Below, piece by piece: positions 1,673 through 41,854 of a stretch of DNA of 41,854 nt. The position numbers were made by a program, and so were the translations under genes. The notes beneath the pieces were generated by a model that was not told where the DNA came from, ran no database searches, and saw only the letters and a list, made by a program, of their open reading frames with translations. The DNA comes from an uncultured Verrucomicrobia subdivision 3 bacterium (GTDB taxonomy: Bacteria > Verrucomicrobiota > Verrucomicrobiia > Limisphaerales > UBA11358). Numbering within the stretch: the first letter of the stretch is position 1; every line of letters starts with the position of its first letter. The stretch is taken from the NCBI GenBank assembly GCA_903870815.1, contig CAIQEI010000149.1, positions 1 to 41,854 on the forward strand. The letters are read 5' to 3'.

Positions 1673-3370
1673 ATGGAATCCATTTCTGACCAGCTTGAAG
1701 CTGGACCCAATCTGAACAAAACCCGCCGGCGGCCACATGCGGCCGCGGCCAACCTGGACCGGTTGCCGCCGCATAGCGTGGAGGCGGAGCAGGGGGTGCT
1801 GGGGTGCTGCCTGCTTGATCCGCAGGTGGTGATGGGGACTTGTGTGGAGCGGTTGAAGGGGGACGGGCACCTGGCGTTTTATGATCTGCGGCACCAAACC
1901 GTTTTCAACGTGCTGCGGGCCATGTACGACGAACAGATGGGCATTGACCTGATCACGGTCCAGGAGCGGTTGAAGCAACAGAACACGCTGGAAGAGGTCG
2001 GCGGCATTGCCTACCTGAGCCAGTTGCAGGATGGGGTGCCCAGTGCCGCGAACCTGGACTACTACCTGGACATTGTGAAGGAGAAACACAAGCTCCGGAA
2101 GTTGATCCAGCTCTGCGGCGGGATCGCGGGCAAGATTTACGATTACGAGGGGGAGGCGGATAAACTGATCGTGGAATGCGAGGCGGAGATCTCCAAACTC
2201 ACGGAGGAGGAGACACCGCAGACGGAGCAGCACATCCGCCAGGTGATGCTGGGGGTGATTGCCGACATGGAGCAGTGGCATTACAGCCGCGGCAGCCAGC
2301 AGCTGCGCGGATTGCCCACCGGGCCGGCCGGGGTGTACCTCGACAAGGTCTTGATGGGGATCCGGCCGATGCACTACGTGACGGTGGCCGGCCGGCCGGG
2401 TGAGGGCAAATCCTCCTGGGCGATGAACCTGGTGGAATTTCTGGCGGCGGATTATGTGTGGCAAAAGCCGACGGGCAAAAAAATCCTGAAGGACGCCGGC
2501 GAGGGTGAGCCGCCGGTGGAAGTGGAGGAGACCGAACCGGTGAAGGGTATTCCGGTGGGCGTGTTCACCATCGAGATGGACAACGAAAGCCTGGGCTACC
2601 GGCTGCTGTTTGGCCGGGCTGGTGTCTCGGAAGCAAAATTCAACCAAGGATTCGCGCCGAAGGGGACGAATGAAAAGCTGGCCATGGCGGCCAGCCAGCT
2701 GGCGGCGACGAACATCTGGCTGGATGACAGCACGGGCCAGACGATCAACCAGATCGCCGCCAAGGCGCGCCGGATGGCACGGCAGCACGGCATCAAACTC
2801 TTCGTGCTCGATTATCTCCAGCTCTGCGTCTCGGACAATCCGCGCGATGAGGAGCGGATCAAACTCGACAAAATTTCCAAAAAAATCATGGCGCTCAAAA
2901 AACAGCTGGGCGTGCCCTGGCTGGTGCTGGCGCAGTTGAACCGGAACATCGAGACGGACGGCCGGGGCCGCGACCGCCAGCCGCTGCTCTCCGACCTGGC
3001 CGGCTCCGGAGCCATCGAGCAGGACAGCGACAAGGTGATCATCATCCGCAAAACCCCGCGCCGCGAGGTGGAGGAGGCGCCGGAGAACGGGACCAGCGAC
3101 CGGGAGATCATTGACCGGGTGGTGTCGGAAAAGGAATTGAGCTGGGATGAGGTGCCAACCCGCATGGACCTGTGGGTGGTGAAGAACCGGCGCGGTCCCC
3201 GGGGCAAGGCGGAATTTATTTTTCAGAACAATCTCTGCCGGTTCAAGGATTGGCATCTGTGGAAGGTGGAGATGGGGGTGGAGGCCAGGAAGGAAGGCGA
3301 ATCGAAGCACTTTGGCCAAGCACCTGACGGTGCGGCCGCGATGCCAACGAATGACGAATTGGGAATGTAG
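1673..3370 (+). CDS. dnaB: Replicative DNA helicase, DnaB family
   Basis: A 565-residue hexameric 5'-3' helicase that unwinds the phage replication fork. The N-terminal domain is recognisable from residue 31 (LPPHSVEAEQGVLGCCLLDP) to about 125. The RecA-like domain carries Walker A AGRPGEGKSS (239-248), Walker B FVLDY (377-381), QLNRNIE (421-427) and the SDLAGSGAIEQDSD motif (440-453). An acidic/Lys insertion of about 35 residues (260-292) lies between the Walker A helix and the next strand; it is unusual and of unknown role. The first ~20 residues are partly encoded by a family A hairpin (DQLEAGPN), so the native start may lie differently; ATG 1673 has no good SD. It is somewhat longer than typical DnaB (~450-470). 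Encoded just after the initiator. Confidence 0.95.
   Translation: MESISDQLEAGPNLNKTRRRPHAAAANLDRLPPHSVEAEQGVLGCCLLDPQVVMGTCVERLKGDGHLAFYDLRHQTVFNVLRAMYDEQMGIDLITVQERLKQQNTLEEVGGIAYLSQLQDGVPSAANLDYYLDIVKEKHKLRKLIQLCGGIAGKIYDYEGEADKLIVECEAEISKLTEEETPQTEQHIRQVMLGVIADMEQWHYSRGSQQLRGLPTGPAGVYLDKVLMGIRPMHYVTVAGRPGEGKSSWAMNLVEFLAADYVWQKPTGKKILKDAGEGEPPVEVEETEPVKGIPVGVFTIEMDNESLGYRLLFGRAGVSEAKFNQGFAPKGTNEKLAMAASQLAATNIWLDDSTGQTINQIAAKARRMARQHGIKLFVLDYLQLCVSDNPRDEERIKLDKISKKIMALKKQLGVPWLVLAQLNRNIETDGRGRDRQPLLSDLAGSGAIEQDSDKVIIIRKTPRREVEEAPENGTSDREIIDRVVSEKELSWDEVPTRMDLWVVKNRRGPRGKAEFIFQNNLCRFKDWHLWKVEMGVEARKEGESKHFGQAPDGAAAMPTNDELGM
1690..1711 (+). repeat. Hairpin mini-element, family A copy 2 (inside dnaB)
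   Basis: CCAGC-TTGAA-GCTGG followed by ACCCAAT. It lies 17 nt after the annotated dnaB ATG and is translated as DQLEAGPN. The stem is intact, with compensating changes relative to copy 1 (GTGAC loop replaced by TTGAA). Confidence 0.75.
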
Positions 3371-4028: not shown

Positions 4029-5849
4029 ATGAAAAAGACAAAGACAGCAACCGTGCCGGCGGGGGACAACCTGAAGGTTGAACTCCAACCCGGTGAATCC
4101 ATGCGGGTGCCGTACGCGAAGGTGCGGCCGGACCCGAACCAGCCGCGCAAGACGTTCAACGAGGCGGCGCTGAAGGAACTGGCGGACAGCATCGCCCAAC
4201 AGGGGATCCTCCAGCCACTGATCCTGGAACTGAAGCCGGCGAAATACAAGATCCTGGAGCCGGACCTGCACGTGAAGGAGTACCGGGTACTGGAGGCAAC
4301 GCCGGAGGGCGACATCCCGTGGACGGAAGTGCTGCGGTCGGGCAAGGAGGACCAGTGCGTGAGCTATGCCGGGGTGCAGAACCTGACGGAAAGCTATCAG
4401 ATCGTGTGCGGGGAGCGGCGCTGGCGGGCCGCGGGGATGCAGCCCAAGGGGACGATGGACACCATCCCGGCGGTGGTTTATCGCGGGTTGTCGGACCGAC
4501 AACGGTTTGCGATGCAGTTCATCGAGAATAATCAGCGCGAGAACATCACGGCGCTGGAGGAGGCAGCGGCGCTGCAACGGCAACTGGAGGACCGGCGGAA
4601 GAAGGACGCGACGTTCAACAAGGAGAAGCTGGCGGCGGAACTGGGCATGAGCCGGGCGGCGATCTTTGAACTGTTCAAGCTGAACCGGCTGCACGCGCCG
4701 GTGCGGGCGGCGCTGGTGGCGGGCAAGATCAGCGTGAGTGTGGCGGGCGAACTGGCAAAGGTGCCGACGCCGAAGGCGCAGGAGAAGCTGCTGAAAAAAA
4801 TCACGGACGAGAAGGAATGGAAATTCCCATTCAGTGTGCGGGACGTGCAGGAGATCATCGAGGACGATTACGTGAAGCAGCTCGATGACGCGCCGTTTGA
4901 CACCAAGCTGACCTACGGCGACAGCGTGGCCGGCGTGCTCGATGCCTGCACGCATTGCCCGAACCGGACGGGCAACCAGGTGGACGAGTTTCCGGAACTG
5001 AAGACGCGGCCCAACGTGTGCACCAACCCGGATTGCTACGCGGGCAAAGTGCGGGCGTACTGGCTGGAACAGGCCAAGGACGAAATGGACAAGGGTAAAA
5101 CGGTCCTGACCGAGAAGGAATACAAGGCGCAGCGCGCCACATTGACGCCGGTGGATGAATACATCTATCCGGTCGGCAAAAATGGAACCCTCAAAGCACT
5201 GCTCGGCAAGCATTCGCCGGACCCGATACTGGTGGCCACGGCGGGCGGGATGGCGAAGTATTTCCGCAAGGAGGATCTGCCGGAGGCGTTCACGGCGGCG
5301 AAACTGAAATTCCGCGAGCACGATGCCTCGATGCAAACGCCGGAAGAAAAGGCCAAGGCGGAGGCGAAGCGGAAGGAACAAATCGCACTGGGCGAACGGG
5401 TGAAGGACTACCTCGACACGCGCGTGGACGAGCTGGCCAAGGCCCTGCCCAAACTGAAGCCGGCGGTCGCCTTTGAGGTGCTCGAACTGTTGCTGGATGG
5501 CATAGACAGTTACGGCGAGGTGGAATTTGAGACGGGTCCGCTGGAGAAATTGAAAGACCCGCAGGGCAAAGTGCTGGCGGCGTTCTTCAAGACTAGCGGC
5601 AATGACCCGTGGGATTGCCACGAATGGCAGAAGGACGCGGTGGCGGCGTGGAAGCTGGCCGGCATTGACCTGGTGGAGGGATTCAAGGCGAGCGAAAAAA
5701 CAGCGCAACCGGCGCTGGTTTTACCCGCGAAAAAAGCGCCGCTGCAACCAAAGCTGCTGAAGGTGGCCAAACTCTCCCCCACCGCGATTGCGCGGATCAA
5801 GGCGGCGCAGAGGGCGCGCTGGGCGAAGATCAAAGCCAAGGTGAAGTAA
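4029..5849 (+). CDS. ParB/Spo0J-like DNA-binding protein with a Cys cluster (606 aa)
   Basis: The ATG at 4029 has SD AAAGGAAC. Residues 25-65 are the ParB N-terminal domain (VPYAKVRPDPNQPRKTF, ELADSIAQQGILQPLIL). The arginine motif GERRWRAAG is at 128-136 and FIENNQRENI at 164-173. A KorB/Noc-type HTH follows (about 195-222, LAAELGMSRAAIFELFKLNR). Residues ~70-122 are an insertion not seen in the canonical domain. Residues 307-336 carry CTHC and CTNPDC, a probable zinc site. The C-terminus is Lys/Ala-rich. ParB-family proteins segregate DNA and use CTP through the GERR motif; phage versions also act as regulators or nucleases. No ParA is seen, so partition is unlikely to be its only role. Much longer than typical ParB (~300 aa). 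Confidence 0.85.
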   Translation: MKKTKTATVPAGDNLKVELQPGESMRVPYAKVRPDPNQPRKTFNEAALKELADSIAQQGILQPLILELKPAKYKILEPDLHVKEYRVLEATPEGDIPWTEVLRSGKEDQCVSYAGVQNLTESYQIVCGERRWRAAGMQPKGTMDTIPAVVYRGLSDRQRFAMQFIENNQRENITALEEAAALQRQLEDRRKKDATFNKEKLAAELGMSRAAIFELFKLNRLHAPVRAALVAGKISVSVAGELAKVPTPKAQEKLLKKITDEKEWKFPFSVRDVQEIIEDDYVKQLDDAPFDTKLTYGDSVAGVLDACTHCPNRTGNQVDEFPELKTRPNVCTNPDCYAGKVRAYWLEQAKDEMDKGKTVLTEKEYKAQRATLTPVDEYIYPVGKNGTLKALLGKHSPDPILVATAGGMAKYFRKEDLPEAFTAAKLKFREHDASMQTPEEKAKAEAKRKEQIALGERVKDYLDTRVDELAKALPKLKPAVAFEVLELLLDGIDSYGEVEFETGPLEKLKDPQGKVLAAFFKTSGNDPWDCHEWQKDAVAAWKLAGIDLVEGFKASEKTAQPALVLPAKKAPLQPKLLKVAKLSPTAIARIKAAQRARWAKIKAKVK

Positions 5850-14001: not shown

Positions 14002-15231
14002 ATGGAAATTCCGAAAAACAAAAAAGAGTCGGCCGCTGCGGGGAAGGCCGGAGAACCAACCGCTGAGAAAACGCAGATCACTTTATCCGCGGCCGGCATG
14101 GCGGACTTGCTCAAAAGCGAGTTTGCCGAACCGGAAGCAAAACCGGAGACACCCCCAGCCAAAGAAATCCCGGCTGCTGGTGAATCCGACGAGGAAGAAG
14201 CTGGCAAGGAAGTTGAACACGGCGAGGAGAAACCTGAAGTCCTTGCGGACGGCCACCAGGCTGAAGGCGAGGAAAAGGTGGAGGGCGAAGGCGAAGAAGG
14301 CGAAGCGGAGGAGGGTCACGCGGACGAAACCCAGGTGCCGGCGGAGCTGCAAAGCGAGCTGGACAAATGGGAGGAAGCCGGCGGACCGCTGCCCCCGGCC
14401 TTGCAGGCGGTGATGGGCAAACGGATCGGCAAACTGACGGCGGCGCGCGAGGCGGAGAAAACCCGCGCCGACCAGGCGGAGGCGAAGCTCAAGGCGGTCA
14501 CGGCGGAAGCCGAGGCCCTGAAGGCGGACCCGAACCGCCCGGTGCACCCGGTGCCGCAGACGTTGCCCGACGAGAAGACGGTGGCGACGATGGCGACAAC
14601 CGCGCAACGGATGGTGGCGGAGATCGAGAATTATCTCGACGAATCCGCCACGGAGGAGGAGCGCGGGCGCGTGGAACGCTTCATGGAGTCCAGACACCTG
14701 GATGCCAAGGGGCTGAAACGCGAGCTCCGGCAGACGAACGCCTTCCTGACCCAGGAGCTGCCGAAGCTCCAGGAACAGGTGAAGACGTTCCGCCAGCAGG
14801 AGGCGGCCCATGAGCCGATCGCCCAGGCGCGGTTCCCCTGGCTGAACCAGAAGGACACGGCGGAGTTCCAGAAGGCGCAGGAGGTTTTGGGCTTCATGCC
14901 CGAGCTGCGCTCACGGATCCCGGCGCACAAGGCGGCGCTGGGCACCTGGGTGGTGGGCCTGAAGGTGCTGGAGGCGCTCAACGCCGCCGGCCACGAAGGC
15001 GACGCCCTGGCCGCCGCGCTCCCCGCGATCGTCAAGGCGTTCCCGCCCAAAGGCGCCGCCGCCAAGACCGCCCCCGTGAAGACGCCCCCGCCGAAAACGC
15101 CGACCGGCGGCAGCGCCGCCCCCGGCAAAACCGTGATCCGCAAGGATGACGCCGCCCGGCAGACGTTCAACAAAACTCCGAACCGGCAGACCGCCACGGA
15201 ACTCGCCCGAGCGGCCTTGATGGCCACTTAG
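14002..15231 (+). CDS. Scaffolding protein (409 aa)
   Basis: I chose the ATG at 14002; an in-frame GTG at 13993 is possible. The protein lies immediately before the capsid gene. Residues ~45-115 are strongly acidic (runs of EGE, EEG). A long coiled coil follows (AAREAEKTRADQAEAKLKAV and later ELPKLQEQVKTFRQQEA). The C-terminus is Ala/Pro/Lys-rich and ends with a basic helical segment (TPNRQTATELARAALMAT), the type of tail that contacts coat protein. This composition is typical of internal scaffolds that direct procapsid assembly and then leave or are degraded. No protease domain was seen. Confidence 0.78.
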   Translation: MEIPKNKKESAAAGKAGEPTAEKTQITLSAAGMADLLKSEFAEPEAKPETPPAKEIPAAGESDEEEAGKEVEHGEEKPEVLADGHQAEGEEKVEGEGEEGEAEEGHADETQVPAELQSELDKWEEAGGPLPPALQAVMGKRIGKLTAAREAEKTRADQAEAKLKAVTAEAEALKADPNRPVHPVPQTLPDEKTVATMATTAQRMVAEIENYLDESATEEERGRVERFMESRHLDAKGLKRELRQTNAFLTQELPKLQEQVKTFRQQEAAHEPIAQARFPWLNQKDTAEFQKAQEVLGFMPELRSRIPAHKAALGTWVVGLKVLEALNAAGHEGDALAAALPAIVKAFPPKGAAAKTAPVKTPPPKTPTGGSAAPGKTVIRKDDAARQTFNKTPNRQTATELARAALMAT

Positions 15232-27754: not shown

Positions 27755-28666
27755 ATGCAAACAGTTGAAACCATCCCGTCCAGACGCCTGGATCTAACCC
27801 CGGCGGGGCTGGAGCGCGCGGCCGACTGGATGCTGGCGCGGCCGCAGGTGGCGATGCCGCTGCGGCACCACTTCGCGCCGGGCATCTGCATCCGCGAACT
27901 CACGATGCCGGCCGGGACGCTGGTGCTGGGCCATCATCACCGGTTTGCGGACCTGAACATCATGCTAACCGGGCGGCTGAGCCTCCTCAATCAGGACGGC
28001 ACCGTGACCGAGCTGAAGGCGCCGCAGACCTTTGTGAGCCAGCCGGGCCAGAAGATCGCCTACATCCACGAGACGGTCATTTGGCAAAATGTCTGGGCCA
28101 CGGAGCTAACCGACGTGGAGGCGATCGAGAATCATTTCCTCGATCTTTCGCGGGTGTGGGTGGCGGACCGGGCCCAGCGGCTGGCCATGGAACGGCTGGC
28201 GCGTCAGGGCGACCGGGAAAGCTTTGCGGCGTTCCTGCAATATCACGAGCTGCCGGCGGAGGATGTGCGGCGCATCTCCGAAAACATGGCGGACCAGATG
28301 CCGCTGCCGCCGGGCAGTTGGAAATTCCGCGTGGGTGAATCCGCCATCGAGGGGCAGGGGTTGCTGGCGACCGCGCCGATCGCGGCGGGCGAGGTGATTG
28401 GCCCAGCGCGGATCAACGGCCAGCGCACGCCGCCGGGACGCTACACGAACCACGCGGAAAACCCGAATGCGAAGATTGTGTCCGCGCAGAATAATCCGCC
28501 GGGCTGGGAGCTGGTGATGATCGCCACGCGGGACATTGCCGGAGCGCACGGCGGACAGCCGGGCGAGGAGATCACGGTGAACTATGAGCAGGTGCTGGCC
28601 GCCAACAATTCGCTGGCGGTGGAACTTGCCAAACGAAAAGGATTAAATTTATGTCAGCAGCCATAG
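27755..28666 (+). CDS. Cupin-SET domain fusion, putative lysine methyltransferase (303 aa)
   Basis: The ATG at 27755 is one base after the fibre stop. Residues ~50-118 form a cupin-like beta-barrel: GHHHRFADLNIMLTGRLSLL carries clustered His60-62, and QTFVSQPGQKIAYIHETVIW follows. Residues 188-278 read as a compact SET domain: SAIEGQGLLATAPIAAGEVI (with the GxG at 200-202), NHAENPNA (232-239, the NHxxxPNA active-site motif), MIATRDIA, and GEEITVNYE (270-278, catalytic-Tyr strand). SET proteins methylate lysines using AdoMet; phage SET genes are uncommon. The target is unknown: virion protein, host chromatin-like protein or ribosomal protein. The gene overlaps the next ejection gene by 16 nt. 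Confidence 0.82.
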   Translation: MQTVETIPSRRLDLTPAGLERAADWMLARPQVAMPLRHHFAPGICIRELTMPAGTLVLGHHHRFADLNIMLTGRLSLLNQDGTVTELKAPQTFVSQPGQKIAYIHETVIWQNVWATELTDVEAIENHFLDLSRVWVADRAQRLAMERLARQGDRESFAAFLQYHELPAEDVRRISENMADQMPLPPGSWKFRVGESAIEGQGLLATAPIAAGEVIGPARINGQRTPPGRYTNHAENPNAKIVSAQNNPPGWELVMIATRDIAGAHGGQPGEEITVNYEQVLAANNSLAVELAKRKGLNLCQQP

Positions 28667-33800: not shown

Positions 33801-35605
33801 GGCTGGCGACGAAACGCGGATTTGAATGGTGGGAGTCGGCGCGCGAGTTCTGGTACGCAAACGTGCTGAGCGGGTTGACGACGGCGGAAAAGATTTTCCG
33901 CAGCAATGCGTTGAGCGCCGGCGCGGAAATTGGCTTGCAGATGATGCGCCATCCCACAGCCATTCCTCAAATCCTCGAAGCCACGGCGCGGTCGATCCCG
34001 CGCAGCGCGGCGGAGGCGTGGCGCATCACCAAGACGGGCATGAGCGGCCGGCCGGGTGATGTGTTTGACCATTCCTCATGGATGGAGACGCGCAAAGGTC
34101 CGGCGGCCGCGATGGTGTATCCGTGGAAGATTGTTTTCCGCACGCATCACGCACTGCACGCGCTGACGTATTATCCGCTGGAGGAAACCAAGGCGCTGGT
34201 GCTCTCGCGTGAGGCGGTGAAGCGGGACGGGGTGCCGGTGTTTGGTGGCGAGCTGGGCAAGGCGGCGGCACAGAAGATGCAATGGCTAGGTGAGCAACGC
34301 CAGGACGCGGCGCGACAGGCACAGGCGGAGGGACTGAAGCCGGGCGGACCGCTATACAATAGCCGGGTGGATCAGATTTTGAGCCAGCGCCGGGACAAAA
34401 CGGTGATGATCAACGCGCAGCAGTTCGCACAGATGGGCACTTACGTTAACGACATGTACGGGATGGTGGGCGCGGCGGGCGATCAGTTTAACAAGTTCGC
34501 GCAGAATTATCCGGTGGCGCGGCTGGTGCAGCCCTTCGTGAAAATTCCAATCAACCTTTTCAACGGAATGATGAACTGGACGCCGGTGGGTGCGTATCGC
34601 GCGGCCCGTGGCCAGGGATTCAAGTTGTTGATCGGCAGGGAAGGAAACACGGGCAAGCTCTACGGGCGCGAGGTGACGGATCCCACGGCCATCGGCGACC
34701 TCTACGCGAAGGCCACCATTGGCACGCTGGCCACGGTCGGCTTAATGTCGGCTGCCTCCGCGTTTGTTAACGAACCCAATCCGCCCTTCATGGTGACGGC
34801 GCGCGGTCCGAACGATCTAAACCATCGCCGGCTGCTGGAACAGGCTGGTTGGATTCCGAACAGCGTCAAGGTGGGCAATACATACTATCCCTATCTCGAT
34901 ACGCCAGTGGGTGTGGTGCTGTCGTACATTGGCCACACGATGGACGCCTTGCGTTACAATAAGCTCGATCACGATGATGCACTGAGCCGGGCGATGTTCG
35001 CGGCCAGCTCGATCCGCAGTGTGATTTTTGACTCAACCTGGGCGCAGGGTCTGAGTGCGCTGTTTGATTCTGGTAGCTACCAGTCCAATAAAAACCTAGG
35101 GGAAAAGGGAATGCAGCAGGCAATCCGTACGGCCAGCGGATTCGTGGTGCCGAACATTCTGAAGCAACTCGATCAGATTTACGATCCGACGGTTTATAAA
35201 GCGGACGACATCCGGGCCATGACCTTGACCCAGATCCCCTTTGCCCGCTCGAATGGTGAGCCGGATCTGAATGTGTTCGGGCAGCCGGTGCTAAACCCGC
35301 TCTCCAGCCGGATCCTTTCACAAGTGCAAGGGGATGCCCTAATCCAGACGCTGGCCGGCCGGCGCATCTGGCCCAGTGTGCCGCTAGATCCCGATTTGAC
35401 GCCAAAGGAGCAGCGTTTGATCTTGCTTGCCCGCGGGCCGCAACTCCGAGCCCAACTCCAGGCGCAGCTCCCCATGATCAAAGCCCTGCCACAAGCCGAA
35501 GCCCAGACGCTAGTGAACAATATCAGCCGGAAAACCACCGAGGCGGCAAAGAAAGAGCTGGGCTTTGATAATCTGCTACGCGCCCGGCGGGCAGCAAATC
35601 GCTAG
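30896..35605 (+). CDS. Giant internal virion / ejection protein (1569 aa)
   Basis: The ATG at 30896 lies 3 nt after the previous stop. At the N-terminus (first ~45 residues) three DDVMPSQR-like octapeptides occur (5-12 and repeated), and a fourth (EDTLPSQR) lies near residue 360. A central region ~630-1000 is helical and charged (LAHVARRLAEEQKLAERAGDTAKADALAQRQ). The C-terminal ~450 residues contain VKIPINLFNGMMNW, ATIGTLATVGLMSAASAFVN (possible membrane insertion), and VVLSYIGHTMDALRY. This resembles large polyvalent proteins of podoviruses. No lytic transglycosylase motif was recognised. It would form the largest ejected pilot protein. The TAG overlaps the convergent HNH gene's stop (CTAG). 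Confidence 0.75.
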   Translation: MPILDDVMPSQRTAAPAEDDVLPSQRGAATGNAGDDLMPSQRPAPPAVQRPSNDPNAPGGFNYGGKNTKISPDQGLGEELSDLTEPIGRQLNTAGNVTRGVLADVGTLPINTGAPKFRNTAAAWNGKDLPMDAEAKALPTPLRVINAGVQGLVKTAPNLALTALNPVAGAASFGMTPDGFDVKQAAVAAALPVLGKYTGAITEAIASKAGVTKDAALAIWNRIGGAAGAAGAIGADQVQSILQLPEDQRKDAIIEAAGNVGSMFILGATGERTTLADTAAGKLVNKLRGPSEADNLESELGTTSSKQPDAPANPNLKSDLTLLQSVMDDIHRPLAAAQIGRQRAAAKAASASGAEDTLPSQRPPEPTPEVEPPGPSPVLETTPTPADQIPLIPVDVPDEDVKAAAKQLRGDAAPDILDEVQPIAKGPVQFDPEHFGTVVEDARGETMPKGRPTAATGRFDDRVSATAGTPADEVLKGLVAENPKYADWTPDQLAQEMIAAHNRREGTGDALDGQARALVQEEARTQQFQRTNKPGRAGSEPVPASQLFIGDRFKVNGHEMEVTGHATDAETGRPGHVELAGAYGRQNIPATGKVHIDEGSLKSPAAGGLGGVLAKVEKWSDEVLRGGGTHAGTDVLAAYMVKGVLVYARGIRDFAKWSAEMVSHLGEAVKPHLDTIWKTINDPKSELGLSARGLKIVSDTAIDQGVREKINPVYQKLTDMDAKDQALAIGKNYATADAMAQDMLNGKFKDAPGGIEVALLAHVARRLAEEQKLAERAGDTAKADALAQRQIDLLNRYREQSTDIAQALQKHQLLYENFSPAAWLKDFRDLVGKVAARRVEQAAGLPQGTVEVSPHGITKAIAARIAKELEPTHPKLAQAIREFFANPPGGSLADYLKSKGLAEAGKADAAARKLEKVYSDQVAKWRKRNNIPVFDAATEKEVLRRAKAVDGLPRDSVQRATATQDLQNWLATKRGFEWWESAREFWYANVLSGLTTAEKIFRSNALSAGAEIGLQMMRHPTAIPQILEATARSIPRSAAEAWRITKTGMSGRPGDVFDHSSWMETRKGPAAAMVYPWKIVFRTHHALHALTYYPLEETKALVLSREAVKRDGVPVFGGELGKAAAQKMQWLGEQRQDAARQAQAEGLKPGGPLYNSRVDQILSQRRDKTVMINAQQFAQMGTYVNDMYGMVGAAGDQFNKFAQNYPVARLVQPFVKIPINLFNGMMNWTPVGAYRAARGQGFKLLIGREGNTGKLYGREVTDPTAIGDLYAKATIGTLATVGLMSAASAFVNEPNPPFMVTARGPNDLNHRRLLEQAGWIPNSVKVGNTYYPYLDTPVGVVLSYIGHTMDALRYNKLDHDDALSRAMFAASSIRSVIFDSTWAQGLSALFDSGSYQSNKNLGEKGMQQAIRTASGFVVPNILKQLDQIYDPTVYKADDIRAMTLTQIPFARSNGEPDLNVFGQPVLNPLSSRILSQVQGDALIQTLAGRRIWPSVPLDPDLTPKEQRLILLARGPQLRAQLQAQLPMIKALPQAEAQTLVNNISRKTTEAAKKELGFDNLLRARRAANR
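31806..31823 (+). repeat. 18-bp repeat, family C, inside the giant gene
   Basis: CGTCCAAACAGCCGGACG: a 5-bp stem (CGTCC/GGACG) with an 8-nt loop, encoding SKQPD. An identical 18-mer lies at 41307-41324 in an unrelated gene, again encoding SKQPD. Confidence 0.85.
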
Positions 35606-36525
35606 TCCGGGCGTTTGGACGCCAGGCGCGTTTGCTGAAACTGTTTGAAGCCGGCAGCGGAAATAAGATTATTGGACAATTCCCCAAATTCACCGGCCGA
35701 CATCCAAGTGCGGAGTTGGCGAAGTGGCACCCCCAGTGCGGCCGCTAGTTTGCCTGGTTGATAGTATTTTGGCCTTCTCGCTCTGTAATTTTTGGTCCCT
35801 TTAACGGGGAGTTTCAAGGAGGGGAATCGGCCACCCTTCACCCGGCCAAGTTCTTCGTGGAGATACACACGCCATTCGGCTTCATCGTGAAGAACCCTTT
35901 CCGGCAAATGAATTGGAAAGTCTCGCGGATGGGGTGGGATCGCAATATTGGCGGCTGAATCAAGCCGACGAGGTGAGGGAAGCCCTTTTAATTTGCGGGC
36001 GCGTTTGACGGCCTTGGCCAGCCTGTCCCGGCTGCGGTCGGCCGCCAGGCGGGCAAGTTCAATGGGTGTGGTGCAGAGATTGGTCCAAGCAAAATCGCCA
36101 TGTAATTTTACCGCCGCCGCATCATACGCGGCCGCTGCCTGCTCCATGGTCTCAAACAATCCCAACACTTGCCGCCGGCGGTTGCGTGTGATCGATGCCT
36201 GCCATTTCTTATATCTCGGTCTATATTGGACGCCCTTTACTGAGCCGGATCTGGCCAGCCGGTTCGCTGCATTTTGGGCGTGAGTAGATATCCGTAAACC
36301 ATCCCGCCGACAGTCGAGAGTGTCCCCAAACCGGTGATCCACCAGTTTTCCTTTGGGGTTGCCCATGATTAGCCGATGCAACAAAATCACCTCACCACCT
36401 GCCGTCCGATAAATATATTTTTTGGGTGCTCCAGAGTTGATTGACCAGTTGTGATGCGATGCCCATTCAAAGACATCATCATCCACTTTTGCGAACAATC
36501 CATGATTGAGCGGTAGGAGCTTCAC
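35602..36525 (-). CDS. HNH-AP2 homing-type endonuclease (307 aa)
   Basis: GTG start at 36525, reading leftward; ATG alternatives are inside the domain. Residues 1-30 match the usual entry 'lpL..g..a.vDddd.ewa...W'. The HNH core is LHRLIMGNPKGKLVDHRFGDTLDCRRDGLR (~49-78) with THAQNAANR. An AP2-like domain follows (GVQYRPRYKKWQASI...VLGLFETMEQAAAAYDAAAVKLHGDFAWTN, ~97-150). A C-terminal ~110 residues of unknown type end in an HTH-like segment (KLAAALGVPLRQLRTWMSAGEFG). Such genes cut DNA to spread themselves. It lies convergent to the ejection gene and between the late operon and the integrase, a typical insertion place. Confidence 0.88.
   Translation of the reverse strand: MKLLPLNHGLFAKVDDDVFEWASHHNWSINSGAPKKYIYRTAGGEVILLHRLIMGNPKGKLVDHRFGDTLDCRRDGLRISTHAQNAANRLARSGSVKGVQYRPRYKKWQASITRNRRRQVLGLFETMEQAAAAYDAAAVKLHGDFAWTNLCTTPIELARLAADRSRDRLAKAVKRARKLKGLPSPRRLDSAANIAIPPHPRDFPIHLPERVLHDEAEWRVYLHEELGRVKGGRFPSLKLPVKGTKNYRARRPKYYQPGKLAAALGVPLRQLRTWMSAGEFGELSNNLISAAGFKQFQQTRLASKRPD
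35605..35620 (+). repeat. Family C-like hairpin at a gene end
   Basis: GTCC-GGGCGTTT-GGAC, whose first G is the last base of the TAG stop of the giant gene. A similar arrangement (stop codon G + TCC...GGAC) occurs at 40594-40609. Confidence 0.55.
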
Positions 36526-36705
36526 GGGTTACATCTTAAGTTTCATCTGGGTCTGGTAGTTGGTTAATTAGTCGCACAAGCCCATCTATTAAAGACTCTC
36601 CCACCAAGTGCAAAACGGGCTAAAATTGATTATTAGTCAATCGAAAGTATCATCTGTGGTTTTGCCTGTTCGGGGTTTTGTTGGATATTCGCCTTGTTTC
36701 ATCGG
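36526..36705. other. Intergenic region, candidate attP
   Basis: It is 180 bp, AT-richer than its surroundings, between the HNH gene's start and the integrase stop. It has TTGATTATTAGTCAA (a short inverted repeat, about 36626-36640), no open frame of interest and no hairpin of the A/B families. attP usually lies next to int, so this is the best location in the window, but no core can be defined without a bacterial attB. Confidence 0.3.
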
Positions 36706-38064
36706 CTAATTCCGTGTGGTGGGCGCAACCCACGGCAATAGGTTGCGGAGTGTAGCGGAGTCTTTAGGAACTTCGCAATTTGGTTCTAAAGTTACATCTG
36801 GCAACGGGGCGGTGGCGACCACGGCCCATTTCGCGGGCAGGGTGGCCAGATCCGCCGGCTTGAACTTGGTGATGAAGTGGCTGTAGTTCTGCTCGGTGAC
36901 TTTGACGGTGCTGTGCCGCAGGAACATCTGCGCCTCGTAGATGCCATACTTCATGGCGACCTGGCTGCCGACGTAGGCCCGCAGGGCGTGGTTGGTCTTC
37001 ATGGTGGCCCAGCCCAGTGCCCGGAGCCAGTCGCCGATCTTGCGGTACACTTCATCGGTCCGGTAGTAGTCCGTCCCTTCAATGACCAAGTCCGTGCCGG
37101 ACTGGCCATCATTCTTTGGCCACCATTCTTTGGCGGTGGCGATTGTTTTCATGGTGCTGTAAAAGGGATCGAGGGCGCGGACCTGGACGAGGCCGGAGCC
37201 GTTCTTGACGTTGGCCCGGCCATCGAGGACGGGATAGCCGGCACGGACGGTGTGCCAGTTCCAGCGGGCCTGCTCCATTTCACCTTTGCGTAATCCAAAC
37301 GCCAGCTCGTGGCCGATGGCCAGAAACATGTCCCGGCTGACTGTGTCAGTGCCACCATGCCCGAGGGCTTCCCAGGCTTCCAAGGTCTTTTGAATGATGG
37401 TCTCGCTGGGCGGATTGTAGTTCTGTTTGGGGATGCGGTTGAAGCGGGCGTTATCGCCGGCATTCACAAAGGCCTCGATGCCGGCGAGTCCGGATTTGCC
37501 GGCGGGCAGCAGGTCCTGATCCTGGTAATGCGCGAGGCAGCGGGGGATGAATATGGACTTGGCTTGCGTCCACCGGCTGTTGGCGGAGCGTTTGAGACTG
37601 GCGGCGGCTTCTTGATCCACACAGTTCAGGACGGCGAGCTGGACGGCCTCGAACCATTGGCGGGCGACGGTGGGGGTTAATTCGCGCACGGCGGTGGCGG
37701 TGCCGGCAATCTGTTTGAGGGCGTTGATGTTCAGCTCGCGGGTGGTGGCATTGGCTTCTGCCGGGCCAGAGCGGTACGCGGTGTAGATCTGCTCCAAGGT
37801 GGTGTTGCTGCCGGTGCGGAGCTTGGTGGCGTCCAGACGTGCGTACGAGCCGGCGGAGACGGCCGCAATGATTTCGGTGTATTTGGCTTTGGCGCGGCGC
37901 TGGGCCTCGGCGGCGTCATTCGTCTCCAGGCAGCGGGGATAGGCTTTGCCGCGGTAGGTGAACCGGAAATAGTAGAACCGCTCCTTGTAGCCGGCGGCGG
38001 CCGGGGGCATTTCGCGGCCGTCATCGGCACGCTTAAAGAGGCGGAATTTATTGGATGTTTTCAT
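36706..38064 (-). CDS. int: Tyrosine recombinase / phage integrase (452 aa)
   Basis: ATG at 38064 on the minus strand, with SD AAAAGGAA 5-6 nt upstream inside the preceding small gene. The arm-binding N-terminus (residues 1-60: YYFRFTYRGKAYPRCLETND) is followed by a core-binding domain (90-180). The catalytic domain shows Arg259 (GLRKGEMEQ), Lys288 candidate (NVKNGSG), HALR (359-362), RHS with His384, and the nucleophile Tyr394 (EQNYSHFI). So all expected residues (R, K, HxxR, H, Y) are seen. It inserts phage DNA into the host chromosome. It is last in an ATGA-coupled minus-strand operon. A family B hairpin lies within the catalytic part (37337). Confidence 0.93.
   Translation of the reverse strand: MKTSNKFRLFKRADDGREMPPAAAGYKERFYYFRFTYRGKAYPRCLETNDAAEAQRRAKAKYTEIIAAVSAGSYARLDATKLRTGSNTTLEQIYTAYRSGPAEANATTRELNINALKQIAGTATAVRELTPTVARQWFEAVQLAVLNCVDQEAAASLKRSANSRWTQAKSIFIPRCLAHYQDQDLLPAGKSGLAGIEAFVNAGDNARFNRIPKQNYNPPSETIIQKTLEAWEALGHGGTDTVSRDMFLAIGHELAFGLRKGEMEQARWNWHTVRAGYPVLDGRANVKNGSGLVQVRALDPFYSTMKTIATAKEWWPKNDGQSGTDLVIEGTDYYRTDEVYRKIGDWLRALGWATMKTNHALRAYVGSQVAMKYGIYEAQMFLRHSTVKVTEQNYSHFITKFKPADLATLPAKWAVVATAPLPDVTLEPNCEVPKDSATLRNLLPWVAPTTRN
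37337..37356 (+). repeat. Hairpin mini-element, family B copy 5 (inside int, antisense)
   Basis: CTGAC-TGT-GTCAG followed by TGCCACC on the + strand, opposite to int transcription. Translated in int as part of GGTDTVSRD. Confidence 0.7.
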
Positions 38065-38170
38065 GATGTTCCTTTTCTTGTTTGATCCGGCGGCGCTCCC
38101 GGTAGAAATATTCGAGGTTCCAAAGATTGATCGCCAGACAAATCAGGTTTAAGGCGGTGTAGAAGTTCAT
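38048..38170 (-). CDS. Small single-span membrane protein (40 aa)
   Basis: A reading frame of 40 codons on the minus strand: ATG 38170-38168, TAA 38050-38048. It begins MNFYTALNLICLAINLWNL, with one membrane helix (~3-20), followed by a strongly basic/charged tail (EYFYRERRRIKQEKEHH). The ATG overlaps the lipoprotein's TGA as ATGA, and its end carries the SD and start of int (overlap 17 nt). Both couplings argue that it is translated. Too short for family recognition. Its place between a lipoprotein and int suggests a lysogenic-conversion or exclusion accessory (inference). Confidence 0.65.
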   Translation of the reverse strand: MNFYTALNLICLAINLWNLEYFYRERRRIKQEKEHHENIQ

Positions 38171-38478
38171 GGCGTGGCAGTGGAATTGGTGATGGCAGGA
38201 TCGCCGGGCTTTAGGGCGCGAAAGGTGAGCTGGGCACTTCCAGCGCTACGAAAGGCGATGGGATCTTGGGCATCGCTGGAGATGGGGACCATGACGAGGC
38301 CACGCTTGGCACACCATACGTCTGCTTCGTGATAACAATCAGCCTTGGCATTGGCGGCCGACATCCAGATGGGCAGTGATCCTTTGGAAATGTAATAGGT
38401 ATTTGGCCCGGACGGGACGACGGTGGACATGCAACCGGTGAGAAGGGCTAAAGCGAACGACATAATGGAGGCTTTCAT
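38167..38478 (-). CDS. Lipoprotein expressed with the lysogeny operon (103 aa)
   Basis: ATG 38478 overlaps the RHH gene's stop (ATGA). Residues 1-16 (MKASIMSFALALLTGC) are a lipoprotein signal with lipobox LLTGC (Cys16). The mature part (TYYISKGSLPIWMSAANAKADCYHEADVWCAKRGLVMVPISS) has two Cys and resembles small bacterial lipoproteins of the 'YxxxxxG..swsa..ak..ay..A..fC...gk' type. Phage lipoproteins made in lysogens often block superinfection by masking receptors (known for e.g. T5 Llp). That role is inferred here from the position next to repressor and integrase genes. Confidence 0.75.
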   Translation of the reverse strand: MKASIMSFALALLTGCMSTVVPSGPNTYYISKGSLPIWMSAANAKADCYHEADVWCAKRGLVMVPISSDAQDPIAFRSAGSAQLTFRALKPGDPAITNSTATP

Positions 38479-38780
38479 CCGGCGGTTTTACCGCGCTGAT
38501 TGGACTTTGGCAATTGTGGAAATTTAGTTAACTCGCGGGAACCAACAACCTTTGGTGCAGCCGAGCCGGGAGACTTTGGGGGTTTGCCACCATCCTCGGA
38601 GGTGCTTTCACGAAGGGTTAAGTCGCCGCCAGTAGCCACGTCGGCCCGGGCCAGCTGGGCGATATATTGGCTGCGCGTGAGGTTTAAGGCTGTGGCGCGC
38701 TCATCAACCTGATCCAGCAAAGACTGGGTCATGCTTACGCTGATGGCGGTCTTGCCGGGGCTGCGTGGCTTGGTTGTCAT
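38475..38780 (-). CDS. Ribbon-helix-helix repressor candidate (101 aa)
   Basis: I chose the ATG at 38780. Upstream in-frame ATGs lie inside the -10 box and are excluded. Residues 11-48 form an RHH (MetJ/Arc/CopG) domain: TAISVSMTQSLLDQVDERA and LNLTRSQYIAQLARADV. The C-terminal half is Pro/Ser/Gly-rich and ends in a basic segment. It pairs at 17 of 38 positions (counted by eye) with the RHH domain of the divergent gene at 38871. It shares an operon with lipoprotein, small membrane protein and int, so it is the natural candidate for the lysogeny-maintenance repressor. It would bind as a dimer of dimers to a palindrome in the promoter region. Confidence 0.8.
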   Translation of the reverse strand: MTTKPRSPGKTAISVSMTQSLLDQVDERATALNLTRSQYIAQLARADVATGGDLTLRESTSEDGGKPPKSPGSAAPKVVGSRELTKFPQLPKSNQRGKTAG

Positions 38781-38790
38781 ACTACAGGGC

Positions 38791-38818
38791 ATAATAATGG
38801 TTATTATCATTCAGTCAA
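38791..38818 (-). promoter_or_regulatory. Leftward promoter with operator palindrome
   Basis: On the minus strand: -35 TTGACT (38818-38813), 16-bp spacer, -10 TATTAT (38796-38791). A perfect palindrome ATAATAA-TGG-TTATTAT (38791-38807, given on +) overlaps the -10 and half the spacer. The expected start lies near 38784, only about 4 nt before the ATG at 38780, so the mRNA would be almost leaderless. Confidence 0.75.
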
Positions 38819-38836
38819 GATTTTTGTTATTTTCTC

Positions 38837-38864
38837 TTGACGGAATATTATTCCGTACTATTCT
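38837..38864 (+). promoter_or_regulatory. Rightward promoter with operator palindrome
   Basis: -35 TTGACG (38837-38842), 16-bp spacer, -10 TATTCT (38859-38864). The perfect palindrome ACGGAAT-ATT-ATTCCGT (38840-38856) fills the spacer. The predicted start is about base 38871, which is the A of the ATG, so the transcript is leaderless; no SD precedes it. Confidence 0.75.
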
Positions 38865-38870
38865 CACCAC

Positions 38871-39071
38871 ATGGAAGCAAACAAGTTCAAGAATGTCACA
38901 GTCCAATTAGAGCCGGATTTATTGGATCGAGTGGATTCCCGCGCCGGCCAGTTGGATCTGAACCGCAGCCAATATCTGCGGCGCCTCGTGCGCAAAGATC
39001 TGGGTGTGCCGGTTCCGGAGGTCCAAACGGAGCTGCTGGTAGCGGCCAAGCCGGAAGGGGTGGCAGCGTGA
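38871..39071 (+). CDS. Ribbon-helix-helix regulator, divergent paralogue (66 aa)
   Basis: ATG 38871 sits at the predicted transcription start. Residues 8-44 form an RHH domain (KNVTVQLEPDLLDRVDSRA, LDLNRSQYLRRLVRKDL). Conserved positions with the 38780 gene (LLD-VD-RA-L-L-RSQY-L-R-D) show common ancestry. The short C-tail lacks the long linker of its partner. It would be the antagonist or lytic-side regulator, like Cro opposite CI, but the two families are unrelated and this is inference. Its stop overlaps the next GTG (GTGA). Confidence 0.85.
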   Translation: MEANKFKNVTVQLEPDLLDRVDSRAGQLDLNRSQYLRRLVRKDLGVPVPEVQTELLVAAKPEGVAA

Positions 39072-39253
39072 TTACTCCCGACAATATCAGCGCCGAGGTG
39101 CTGGAAGCCATGCGCTCGTGGATCGCGGATTGTAGCTGGCCGGATCTGGACGATGCCGCTGATCTGACGCCGGCGGAAGTGATCGGAGGGGTTCGCCGCC
39201 ATTTTGACGGTGGCATCAACGCATTTCTTCAAACGATGGAGGTGGCAGCGTGA
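39068..39253 (+). CDS. Small hypothetical protein (61 aa)
   Basis: The GTG at 39068 overlaps the preceding stop (GTGA). The longer open frame from 38837 crosses the promoter and is rejected. The protein is acidic and helical (ISAEVLEAMRSWIADCSWPDLDDAADLTPAEVIGGVRRHF). The C-terminus (MEVAA) is encoded by GATGGAGGTGGCAGCG, which also provides the SD for the next gene. No family was recognised. Confidence 0.65.
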   Translation: MITPDNISAEVLEAMRSWIADCSWPDLDDAADLTPAEVIGGVRRHFDGGINAFLQTMEVAA

Positions 39254-39498
39254 GTGAACCACTTTTTCCATGGAACACATCCGAGCCGCCGAAGGATGGC
39301 CGGTTGCTGGTGGTGGTGGGCCGTGTGCAGTTTACGGATGGCGCCTGTGTCACGGTGACGCCGTTGCCGCCGAGTTTGGTGAGATGGACCGAAAAGCCCG
39401 GCGAGAGCAAGGGCTGGCATTATTTAACAGGTCTAGCTGTGGCGTTGCAGTTGGACGATGAGGTGATGATTGATGGCTGGATGGAGGTGGCGGCGTGA
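39250..39498 (+). CDS. Small hypothetical protein (82 aa)
   Basis: The GTG at 39250 overlaps the previous stop (GTGA), with GGAGGTGG as SD 5-8 nt upstream. Beta-rich body with two Trp: EPLFPWNTSEPPKDGRLLVVVGRVQF...VRWTEKPGESKGWHYL...ALQLDDEVMIDGWMEVAA. The opening ('W...pP.dgr.ilv..G') resembles small DUF551-like phage proteins, a weak resemblance. It ends with the same MEVAA as its upstream neighbour. Confidence 0.65.
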   Translation: MSEPLFPWNTSEPPKDGRLLVVVGRVQFTDGACVTVTPLPPSLVRWTEKPGESKGWHYLTGLAVALQLDDEVMIDGWMEVAA

Positions 39499-39713
39499 TC
39501 GGCATCTTAAACACTTCTGCGATGGCTCAAGCGGTGGGCCTGGATGCACCTGCACCCATGGTGCAGGTGATTTGCTCCTGGTGCAGCAAGGACCTGGGAC
39601 TAAGGCCGTGCGAGCCGGCGCAGGCCGGCAAGATCTCTCACACGATCTGCCCGATCTGTTCGGAGAAGTTTGCCTCGGGCGCCAAGCCCACATTCGCGGA
39701 GGTGGCCAAGTGA
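39495..39713 (+). CDS. Small zinc-finger protein (72 aa)
   Basis: The GTG at 39495 overlaps the previous stop (GTGA). CSWCSKDLGLRPC (~28-40) and ICPICSEKF (~51-59) provide two CxxC pairs, a compact zinc ribbon. The start is chosen by the GTGA coupling used throughout this block. The end (AEVAK) again encodes GCGGAGGTGG as the next SD. Its role is unknown; zinc ribbons of this size commonly regulate transcription. Confidence 0.68.
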   Translation: MIGILNTSAMAQAVGLDAPAPMVQVICSWCSKDLGLRPCEPAQAGKISHTICPICSEKFASGAKPTFAEVAK

Positions 39714-40036
39714 AGACGCCGGCCATCTCTTTTTTTGCAGCGCATGGGTATAAAACCCCATTGCAATTCTTGCCGGTTTCTGATTTGCGGGATAGATCAG
39801 TGGTAGATCAGGTGCCTCATAAACACCGTGTCGTTGGTTCAATTCCAGCTCCCGCAACCATTTTCGCCCGCAACACACGGGCGACGTTCCCCACCCCGGC
39901 GCGTCAGGCGAGTGGCATTGCCTGGCGCGCTTTTATTTTTTCCGCGCTGCACTGGCTTTTCAAGCCCGTGAACCGGCGCGGCCGGCGGCTGCACCGTTGG
40001 CTGGCGGTGAACCAGAGCGTCAGGAGGGTGGCGTGA
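39710..40036 (+). CDS. Doubtful reading frame spanning the tRNA (108 aa)
   Basis: A GTG at 39710 overlaps the previous stop with the same GTGA pattern, and the frame ends at TGA 40036 just after AGGAGGGTGGCG, the same junction style. But bases 39786-39860 are a tRNA and 39899-39941 a terminator, both inside the frame. The translation (AISFFAAHGYKTPLQF..., then RGRRLHRWLAVNQSVRRVA) shows no domain. Either the tRNA was inserted into an existing small gene without creating a stop, or the frame is chance. I list it because both edges match the cassette pattern. Confidence 0.25.
   Translation: MKTPAISFFAAHGYKTPLQFLPVSDLRDRSVVDQVPHKHRVVGSIPAPATIFARNTRATFPTPARQASGIAWRAFIFSALHWLFKPVNRRGRRLHRWLAVNQSVRRVA
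39786..39860 (+). tRNA. tRNA-Met (CAT anticodon)
   Basis: Full cloverleaf: acceptor TGCGGGA/TCCCGCA (39786-39792, 39850-39856), D arm GATC-AGTGGTA-GATC, anticodon stem GGTGC/ACACC with one C-A mismatch, loop CTCATAA with CAT at 39818-39820, variable GTGTC, T arm GTTGG-TTCAATT-CCAGC, discriminator A, encoded CCA (39858-39860). It has a U1-A72 pair and no three G-C pairs closing the anticodon stem, so it does not look like an initiator. An Ile (lysidine) identity cannot be excluded from sequence. Confidence 0.93.
39899..39941 (+). terminator. Rho-independent terminator after the tRNA
   Basis: GCGCGTCAGGC (39899-39909), loop of ten, GCCTGGCGCGC (39920-39930) with one T-G pair, then TTTTATTTTTT. 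An 11-bp stem with a strong T-tract, typical of a tRNA terminator. Confidence 0.92.
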
Positions 40037-40594: not shown

Positions 40595-40620
40595 TCCACC
40601 CGTTTGGACGGCGCGCTTTT
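40594..40620 (+). terminator. Hairpin with T-run after the excisionase-like gene
   Basis: GTCCA-CCCGTT-TGGAC (40594-40609), beginning with the G of the TAG stop, then GGCGCGC and TTTTTT. The stem is short (5 bp) but is followed by a T-run, so it may terminate weakly. It shares sequence with the hairpin at 35605. Confidence 0.5.
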
Positions 40621-40630
40621 TTCGATATTT

Positions 40631-41383
40631 ATGGCTCGAACATCACAGCGTGAAGTGTTGGCAGACCGGCAGCAGCCGGGCCAGCCGGCGTTGTTTGATG
40701 ACTCGCAGATGCCGGTCGAGGCGGCAGCACTGGAGTCCATCCGGACCCGCCGCCACGAGCATCAGGGCATCCGCCTGACGGAGGATGACACCAAGGCGCA
40801 GCGCTTGGTGGAGTTGATCACGCTGAAGTGGGGCGTGAAGAAGATCAGCCGGGAGATGAACGTCAGCCCGCACACGGTCCGAGCCGCCCGCCGCATCCTT
40901 GTCACCCAGGGCAAAGTGGCCCCCTATAAACAAAGAGTGGTGGAGATGATGGAGGATGTCATCGAGCAGGGCGTGGGAAATTACCTTGAGGCGTTGCAGG
41001 ACGGCCGTGTGCCGGCGGCACAAATACCGGTTGGGGTGGCGATTATGTTTGATAAAAGGGCGCTGGCGATGGGTGAGCCGACCTCGATCCGGGGCTCGCT
41101 GGAGGCGCCCAGCGACGATCTGAAGGTGGAGGCGATCAACGCTTACCTGGACGCGCTGCCGAGCGCGAAGGCGGTGACGACTGATACACCATCAACGGAG
41201 ATGACGGGCAAACCCCAGCAAACAGCGGGTGAACCGGCGCTGGATGACAGTTTAGATGCCACCTGCCCGCCTCCAGACGGCCGCGCTGACCCCGTGGCCG
41301 GCGCGGCGTCCAAACAGCCGGACGAGGGCAGCAGCGACGAGACCGGGGGCGGGGGGATGCCGCCGCCGCCGCCGCCGGTTTGA
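40631..41383 (+). CDS. HTH DNA-binding protein, possible small terminase or regulator (250 aa)
   Basis: I chose the ATG at 40631; the frame opens at 40604 inside the hairpin. Residues 66-90 (KWGVKKISREMNVSPHTVRAARRIL) form a clear helix-turn-helix. Residues 98-150 are helical (YKQRVVEMMEDVIEQGVGNYLEALQDG, IPVGVAIMFDKRALAMGEP), reminiscent of small terminase oligomerisation regions. The C-terminal 80 residues are disordered (Pro, Ala, Asp) and end in six prolines. It carries the 18-bp element (SKQPD). In the circular map it lies about 7.8 kb before terL, so a TerS role is possible but not shown. It could also be an early regulator. Confidence 0.6.
   Translation: MARTSQREVLADRQQPGQPALFDDSQMPVEAAALESIRTRRHEHQGIRLTEDDTKAQRLVELITLKWGVKKISREMNVSPHTVRAARRILVTQGKVAPYKQRVVEMMEDVIEQGVGNYLEALQDGRVPAAQIPVGVAIMFDKRALAMGEPTSIRGSLEAPSDDLKVEAINAYLDALPSAKAVTTDTPSTEMTGKPQQTAGEPALDDSLDATCPPPDGRADPVAGAASKQPDEGSSDETGGGGMPPPPPPV
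41307..41324 (+). repeat. 18-bp repeat, family C, identical to 31806-31823
   Basis: CGTCCAAACAGCCGGACG in the disordered C-terminus of the HTH protein, encoding SKQPD exactly as in the giant virion gene. Confidence 0.85.
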
Positions 41384-41442: not shown

Positions 41443-41854
41443 ATGAAATACACGAAAGACCAGTTGATGACCCACACGCCCTGCACCGATGGCCTCAAGT
41501 TCGCCCGCGAGTGCGACTTTGATTTCGTCAAGATTTACAACACCTGCCCGCGGGGTGACTGGCTGATCTGGCTACTACGCCGGACGGGGCAATTTGACAA
41601 ACCCCGGGCCGTGGCGGTGGCCATTGCCTGCGCGGAACACGTGCTGCCCCTCTTTGAAAAAAAACGGCCGGACGACAAACGGCCACGGCAGGCCATCGAA
41701 GCGGCCCAAGCCTGGCTGAAAGACCCCACAGAAAAAAACCGCGCCGCCGCCTACGCCGCCGCCGCCGCCGCCGACGCCACCGCCGCCGCCGCCTACGCCG
41801 CCGCCTACGACGCCGCCTACGCCGCCGCCGCCGCCGCCGCCGCCCGACAGAAGG
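41443..41854 (+). CDS. Ala-rich Imm-5-like protein, N-terminal part (continues at 1-158)
   Basis: The ATG at 41443 follows an A/C-rich leader. Residues 1-105 match the pattern of the Imm-5-like 'putative immunity' family: MTHTPCTDGLKFAREC...TCPRGDWLIWLLRRTGQFDKPRAVAVAIACAEHVLPLFE...KRPRQAIEAAQAWLKDPTEKNR. The CxRGDWxxWL motif and the cluster around AxACAExxLP are characteristic. Residues ~106 onward are GCC/TAC/GAC/ACC triplets (Ala/Tyr/Asp). The 137-residue segment is cut by the window end; the remaining C-terminus is at 1-158. The function is unknown; the immunity name comes from toxin-linked relatives and no toxin is seen here. Confidence 0.8.
   Translation, partial: MKYTKDQLMTHTPCTDGLKFARECDFDFVKIYNTCPRGDWLIWLLRRTGQFDKPRAVAVAIACAEHVLPLFEKKRPDDKRPRQAIEAAQAWLKDPTEKNRAAAYAAAAAADATAAAAYAAAYDAAYAAAAAAAARQK
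41741..41845 (+). repeat. GCC/TAC triplet tract at the window end
   Basis: An in-frame array of GCC codons with TAC, GAC and ACC interspersed; positions 1-92 hold a second such array. The tract reaches the window edge and the sequence after it (CGACAGAAGG) recurs at 93-102. Eight GCC codons precede that sequence here, against four at the start. Confidence 0.85.

Follow-up and report, generated by a model that had tools for sequence, protein, structure and literature searches.

Divergent paralogous RHH genes around a 90-bp control region in a Verrucomicrobiota phage contig: a candidate lysis-lysogeny switch

Organization of the locus

The window, the whole stretch of DNA analysed here, is contig C149, 41,854 bp long and part of a 3.17-Mb draft genome, and judging by its recognisable genes for a DnaB helicase, a ParB-like protein, a major head protein, a tail protein and a tyrosine recombinase it is a phage. 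The EUB338-III site, which is present in a 16S gene from a genome of the same genus, points to Verrucomicrobiota. Two genes for RHH (MetJ/Arc-type) regulators, RHH-L and RHH-R, lie back to back in it, separated by 90 bp (38781-38870). The genes under discussion are as follows; the five small ORFs without a family assignment are taken from the ORF table.

36706-38064, minus strand: tyrosine-recombinase integrase, last in the left operon (phrog_1, 4.7e-9)
38048-38170, minus strand: 40-aa ORF, overlapping the lipoprotein-like ORF on one side and int on the other
38167-38478, minus strand: lipoprotein-like ORF (MKASIMSFALALLTGC...) between RHH-L and int, without a Pfam match
38475-38780, minus strand: RHH-L, 101-aa RHH regulator with a C-terminal tail, heading the integrase operon
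38871-39071, plus strand: RHH-R, 66-aa RHH regulator, heading the early operon
39068-39253, 39250-39498 and 39495-39713, plus strand: three small early ORFs
1673-3370: DnaB helicase, at the opposite contig end from the RHH pair
4029-5849: ParB-like protein, at the same contig end as DnaB

The left operon runs in the order RHH-L, lipoprotein-like ORF, 40-aa ORF and integrase, with overlaps of 4 nt at 38475/38478 and 38167/38170, after which int overlaps by 17 nt; the right operon is joined by overlaps of 4 nt each at 39068/39071, 39250/39253 and 39495/39498. These overlapping ORFs on both sides support the original prediction, made from the sequence alone, that the left gene heads an integrase operon and the right gene the early genes. 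The catalytic residues of the integrase (R259, K287, H359 and Y394) are unchanged in all five relatives with which it was aligned. RHH-R and the three small ORFs are followed by a tRNA-Met gene (CAT, 39786-39860) within the early region, whose closest counterparts elsewhere in the host assembly are only partial or 76-92% identical, and then by HTH-type ORFs. The RHH-L reading frame is open as far as an ATG at 38810, which was rejected as the start since the predicted promoter would then fall inside the gene; 38780 was adopted because it is the sole start codon downstream of the predicted transcription start and agrees with the relatives.

Past the early operon the contig terminates in repeats. 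One GC-rich, alanine-rich repeat is present at both ends (1-102 and 41753-41854; the two copies are 81% identical across 102 bp and do not overlap exactly), which suggests circularity broken at the repeat, and the contig may represent an almost complete genome of circular form. If the phage is circular, DnaB and the ParB-like gene would fall downstream of the early operon. Elsewhere, an ORF amid the structural genes (27755-28666) has a C-terminal SET-domain match above the Pfam cut-off (E 6e-7), which is unusual in a phage, and a homing-endonuclease-like HNH endonuclease with an AP2 domain (35602-36525) adjoins int.

The RHH proteins

BLASTP aligns RHH-L and RHH-R with 17/38 identical positions (E 2e-10), confirming that they are paralogues. 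RHH-R matches Pfam RHH_1 above the cut-off (1.9e-5); the matches of RHH-L to RHH_1 and HicB_lk_antitox are weak and below it, and RHH-L also matches phrog_18157, a transcriptional repressor, at 8e-4. By profile the pair can be placed in the RHH (MetJ/Arc) class, RHH-L being below the cut-off by itself but homologous to RHH-R, and a profile built from RHH pairs (21 rows, P22 Mnt and Arc among them) retrieves the structures of Arc, Mnt, NikR, CopG and antitoxins. The monomers predicted by AF2 with moderate confidence (pLDDT 65-66) have two helices with no strand assigned, at residues 19-31 and 36-49 in RHH-L and 15-27 and 32-44 in RHH-R. The best Foldseek matches of RHH-R, to RHH antitoxins, CopG and Arc, are of the right kind but weak, none reaching E < 0.1.

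Antitoxins are common among RHH families, weak Pfam matches to HicB/CopG antitoxins and NikA were obtained, and the ParB-like protein is encoded on the same contig, all of which would suit autoregulating genes of antitoxin or plasmid type (type II toxin-antitoxin, partition or relaxosome accessory) that are unrelated to the lysogeny decision. A divergent RHH pair is, however, not a toxin-antitoxin layout; CopG, NikR and antitoxins belong to the same fold class as the window pair but are usually encoded singly, in an operon shared with a toxin or replication gene. In Pfam, the ORFs adjoining the pair match no toxin family at E up to 1, the three small early ORFs (39068-39713) match neither a toxin nor any other family, and no ParA or relaxase is recognised adjoining the pair. 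An antitoxin or plasmid-type function is considered very improbable.

The 90-bp control region

The spacer between the two genes falls inside the window's lowest-GC 90-bp stretch (32% GC vs 60%) and holds the following predicted elements.

38791-38818, minus strand: PL, predicted leftward promoter, TTGACT-16-TATTAT, 10/12 consensus, 10 nt from the ATG
38837-38864, plus strand: PR, predicted rightward promoter, TTGACG-16-TATTCT, 9/12 consensus, 6 nt from the ATG
38791-38807, no strand: OL, candidate operator, ATAATAA-TGG-TTATTAT (7-3-7, 17 bp), exact palindrome over the PL -10 box
38840-38856, no strand: OR, candidate operator, ACGGAATA-T-TATTCCGT (8-1-8, 17 bp), exact palindrome
38809-38820, minus strand: mirrored -35 region, copy 1, TCTTGACTGAAT, inverted repeat 11/12
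38835-38846, plus strand: mirrored -35 region, copy 2, TCTTGACGGAAT, inverted repeat 11/12

The two promoters are sigma-70-like and stand back to back, 18 bp apart, with PL the top promoter-like match across the 6.3 kb scanned. Their -35 regions mirror one another, TCTTGAC(T/G)GAAT occurring on both strands with 11 of 12 positions alike, and OR covers the end of the PR -35 box together with most of the PR spacer. The gap, the mirror-placed promoters and their 16-bp spacers are thus as originally described; both palindromes also lie where they had been placed, the left one in the 7-3-7 form given for both, while the right one proves to be longer (8-1-8). The RHH-R mRNA is probably leaderless, and if transcription starts ~7 nt past the -10 boxes, RHH-L would have a leader of ~4 nt and RHH-R none. 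The RHH pair lacks a Shine-Dalgarno sequence, but no weight was given to this as a distinguishing feature because other genes of the phage are likewise without one.

Promoter-like matches come easily in AT-rich DNA, so the whole arrangement could in principle be a chance one, with fortuitous promoter and palindrome matches in an AT-rich spacer and RHH genes that are unrelated. Palindromes of the 7-3-7 kind are not rare as such, with 8 in the window, but AT-rich ones are limited to OL and OR, to which a near-palindrome at 36625 can be added. When the 90 bp were subjected to dinucleotide shuffling, a pair of non-overlapping palindromes of such kind arose in 0/5000 shuffles and a single one in 0.5%. 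This result, the paralogy of the two proteins and the recurrence of the layout across other genomes all argue against chance, which is scarcely credible as an explanation. The near-palindrome outside the control region (ATTGATTATTAGTCAAT, 36625-36641) is a third AT-rich 17-bp element, pairing at 7/8 positions, in an AT-rich intergenic stretch directly 3' of int, and is possibly an att or promoter element. No attB was identified, since the sequence 3' of int has no near-identical counterpart elsewhere in the host assembly.

Comparison with known systems and proposed mechanism

P22 immI is the nearest known system. Its mnt and arc are divergent paralogous RHH repressor genes exactly 90 bp apart (14771-14860), with an identity of 19/40 compared with 17/38 in the window, and its two operators are distinct: Oarc sits within a promoter, while a 17-bp palindrome of 8-1-8 form is part of Omnt. 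Arc shuts off mnt, and Mnt in turn represses both arc and ant (PMC11016777). The window likewise has divergent paralogous RHH genes and a short gap, with two palindromes as candidate operators. The two systems differ in that the P22 pair controls the antirepressor gene ant and is far from int, whereas the window pair is beside int; that Pant and Pmnt overlap face to face, whereas the window promoters are back to back; and that P22 has a separate c2/cro HTH switch, immI being a secondary immunity region. No sequence similarity past the RHH fold is seen between the pairs. The immI module also comprises ant, downstream of arc, and the sar antisense RNA; in the window the small ORFs following RHH-R match no Pfam family, and no ant counterpart is recognised among them.

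A second relevant system is F55 of SSV1, an RHH protein that maintains lysogeny and acts in the role of CI, with sites over the early promoters and its own promoter (PMC5569661). It differs in being a single RHH gene of an archaeal spindle-shaped virus, with sites that are tandem rather than palindromic. These precedents bear on the earlier suggestion of an unusual lysogeny switch made of duplicated RHH proteins: paralogous regulators, operator-like palindromes, a recurring layout and the lack of a detected HTH_3 domain speak for the switch, but the idea has precedents in immI (PMC11016777) and F55 (PMC5569661). What is new is the recurrence and, possibly, a promotion of the pair to the main switch.

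In lysogeny modules with divergent CI/Cro, for example of the TP901-1 type, as is proposed for the window, a short intergenic region with divergent promoters separates a lysogenic gene with int from a lytic gene heading the early genes; their regulators, unlike those of the window, are HTH proteins and their operators are common to CI and Cro.

From the genes, fold class, paralogy, operon order, predicted promoters, palindromes and recurring layout read in the sequence, we infer DNA binding, a matching of proteins to palindromes, mutual repression and a role as main switch. The 90 bp are, on balance, somewhat likely to be the lysis-lysogeny control region of a temperate phage in which two duplicated RHH (MetJ/Arc-type) repressors, through autoregulation and mutual repression, replace the HTH proteins CI and Cro. 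RHH-L, co-transcribed with the integrase, would play the CI/Mnt part on the lysogenic side, and is proposed as the lysogeny-side (CI/Mnt-like) protein; RHH-R, heading the early operon, would play the Cro/Arc part and is proposed as the lytic-side (Cro/Arc-like) protein. RHH dimers, probably as dimer pairs, would bind OL over the PL -10 box and OR in the PR spacer and shut off whichever promoter they cover. As one paralogue is expressed from each promoter, autoregulation and mutual repression would follow, and with them two alternative states. As far as the sequence can tell, either protein may be the partner of either palindrome. By analogy with P22 Mnt/Arc and SSV1 F55, such a double-negative RHH switch is the most likely reading of the locus.

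The resemblance to immI can also be read as secondary control, the pair governing itself and an accessory neighbour (antirepressor, exclusion or integrase level) while immunity comes from an unrecognised repressor or host factor. The geometry of the 90-bp gap, the level of identity and the two operators match immI, which is dispensable for lysogeny in P22 (PMC11016777), and an early-operon gene (40604-41383) has a weak HTH match. No Ant-like element is recognised adjoining the pair, however, and it is the RHH pair itself that heads the integrase and early operons. A CI/Cro-type HTH_3 domain was, moreover, not found on the contig, and a Pfam scan of 32 other ORFs gave only an Xis-like HTH_17 match and weak HTH_23/GntR matches, although a CI-like protein could escape detection here if its HTH is not recognisable. 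A switch of HTH (lambda-repressor-like) regulators is not what the sequence suggests, the regulators at the locus being RHH proteins, and secondary control is regarded as unlikely. Among the relatives described below, a single weak HTH_3 match, below the cut-off, occurs elsewhere in the genome record to which L003 belongs, and L108 has an XRE-like ORF near the integrase (by eye).

Recurrence of divergent RHH pairs and operator specificity

A divergent RHH pair is present in five further integrase-bearing viral, prophage-like or integrative elements, 4/5 of them in Verrucomicrobiota genomes. L003, an IMG/VR contig, has the order integrase(-), RHH(-), an 82-bp gap, RHH(+) and then RecT, and the same gene order is seen in L113/L063, a Verrucomicrobiota contig from another genome of the same order whose integrase is the closest relative found (36% identity). 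The pair proteins of L113/L063 are much diverged and alike one another (34%, E 2e-8); RHH is not called in them by Pfam, and they score with the pair-built profile, which includes them. In the prophage-like L109, RecT/exonuclease(-), RHH(-) and RHH(+) are followed by a further RHH-like ORF, a metalloprotease and an integrase; in L108 the pair, RHH(-) and RHH(+), stands between DnaN-like and primase genes(-) and an integrase; and in L114 a divergent pair, accompanied by a second RHH(+), lies near an integrase. Among the weaker integrase relatives only L064/L114 also has a divergent RHH pair near the integrase, a first, narrow profile having found none. Here and in several relatives the RHH pair occupies the place expected of the main switch.

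Close relatives in viral contigs were not found through RHH-L, DnaB or integrase queries, and RHH-R with the L003 proteins led to one IMG/VR record only. A scan of genome contigs with the RHH-R alignment gave no match, nor did the integrase against phage records, where RHH hits were limited to weak matches (E 0.08) with Arc-like repressors encoded by Sulfolobus rod-shaped viruses.

With the 21-row profile, a wider search raised the number of divergent pairs to 25, P22 not counted. For 19/25 no integrase was found by a six-row profile within the stretches examined, and the layout is accordingly not peculiar to phage switches. Across 92 distinct loci, neighbouring RHH genes are divergent in 25 cases, tandem in 8 and convergent in 0; training on divergent pairs biases the divergent share upwards, but does not explain the contrast between divergent and convergent. 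In the six integrase-linked pairs, identity within a pair averages 0.36 vs 0.19-0.24 between pairs.

Residues Q9, N11 and R13 of Arc, its DNA-reading residues, align with strand positions A-S-S in RHH-L and N-T-Q in RHH-R. The difference at all three fits different operators, and is consistent with the divergence in specificity that had been suggested from the unlike palindromes. Both proteins of L109 carry R-N-A, and an operator-like word, ATTGCGCAA, occurs in both promoters (P 0.003); those of L114 carry A-R-R and A-K-R, and TGTGGCACAAT occurs in both promoters (0/400 shuffles), 7-8 nt from each start codon. In P22, with H-N-R and Q-N-R, the operators differ, and in L108, L172 and L091 the reading residues are similar, yet no significant shared motif is found. 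That pairs with identical reading residues also share a promoter motif is no more than suggestive, with few pairs and two clear cases (L114 and L109).

The unrelated sequences of OL and OR and the differing reading residues would equally suit two independent autorepressors that face one another by accident, each binding the palindrome of its own promoter without cross-talk and forming no bistable switch; Arc is itself autorepressive (PMC7549136). Against such independence stand the orientation bias (25 divergent, 0 convergent) and the two integrase-linked pairs whose promoters have a word in common, and as PL and PR are only 18 bp apart a bound tetramer could affect both. An accidental facing of this kind is rather improbable.

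Returning to the double-negative switch, a broader proposal can be made tentatively, as a possibility that falls short of being probable: Verrucomicrobiota temperate phages and integrative elements may widely use a CI/Cro-free primary switch of duplicated divergent RHH repressors, with pairs that arose or were re-matched repeatedly, some sharing one operator and others splitting specificity. If true, phages of a phylum that has received little study would have recreated the lambda-style two-repressor logic with another DNA-binding fold, and the pair collection would be a natural series on how duplicated repressors part in specificity. A divergent RHH pair beside an integrase would then also be a practical marker for Verrucomicrobiota prophage control regions that CI-based searches miss.

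Two further groups of RHH genes were seen in the wider search. Three-gene divergent RHH clusters occur in one genus, g98 (L110, 9272-10080; L181, L185, L188 and L189), with no integrase found nearby. In one family, f61, divergent pairs (L112, 9015-9635; L177-L180) have one long partner, with open frames of ~210-230 aa, in which the RHH domain is joined to a C-terminal domain of unassigned kind.
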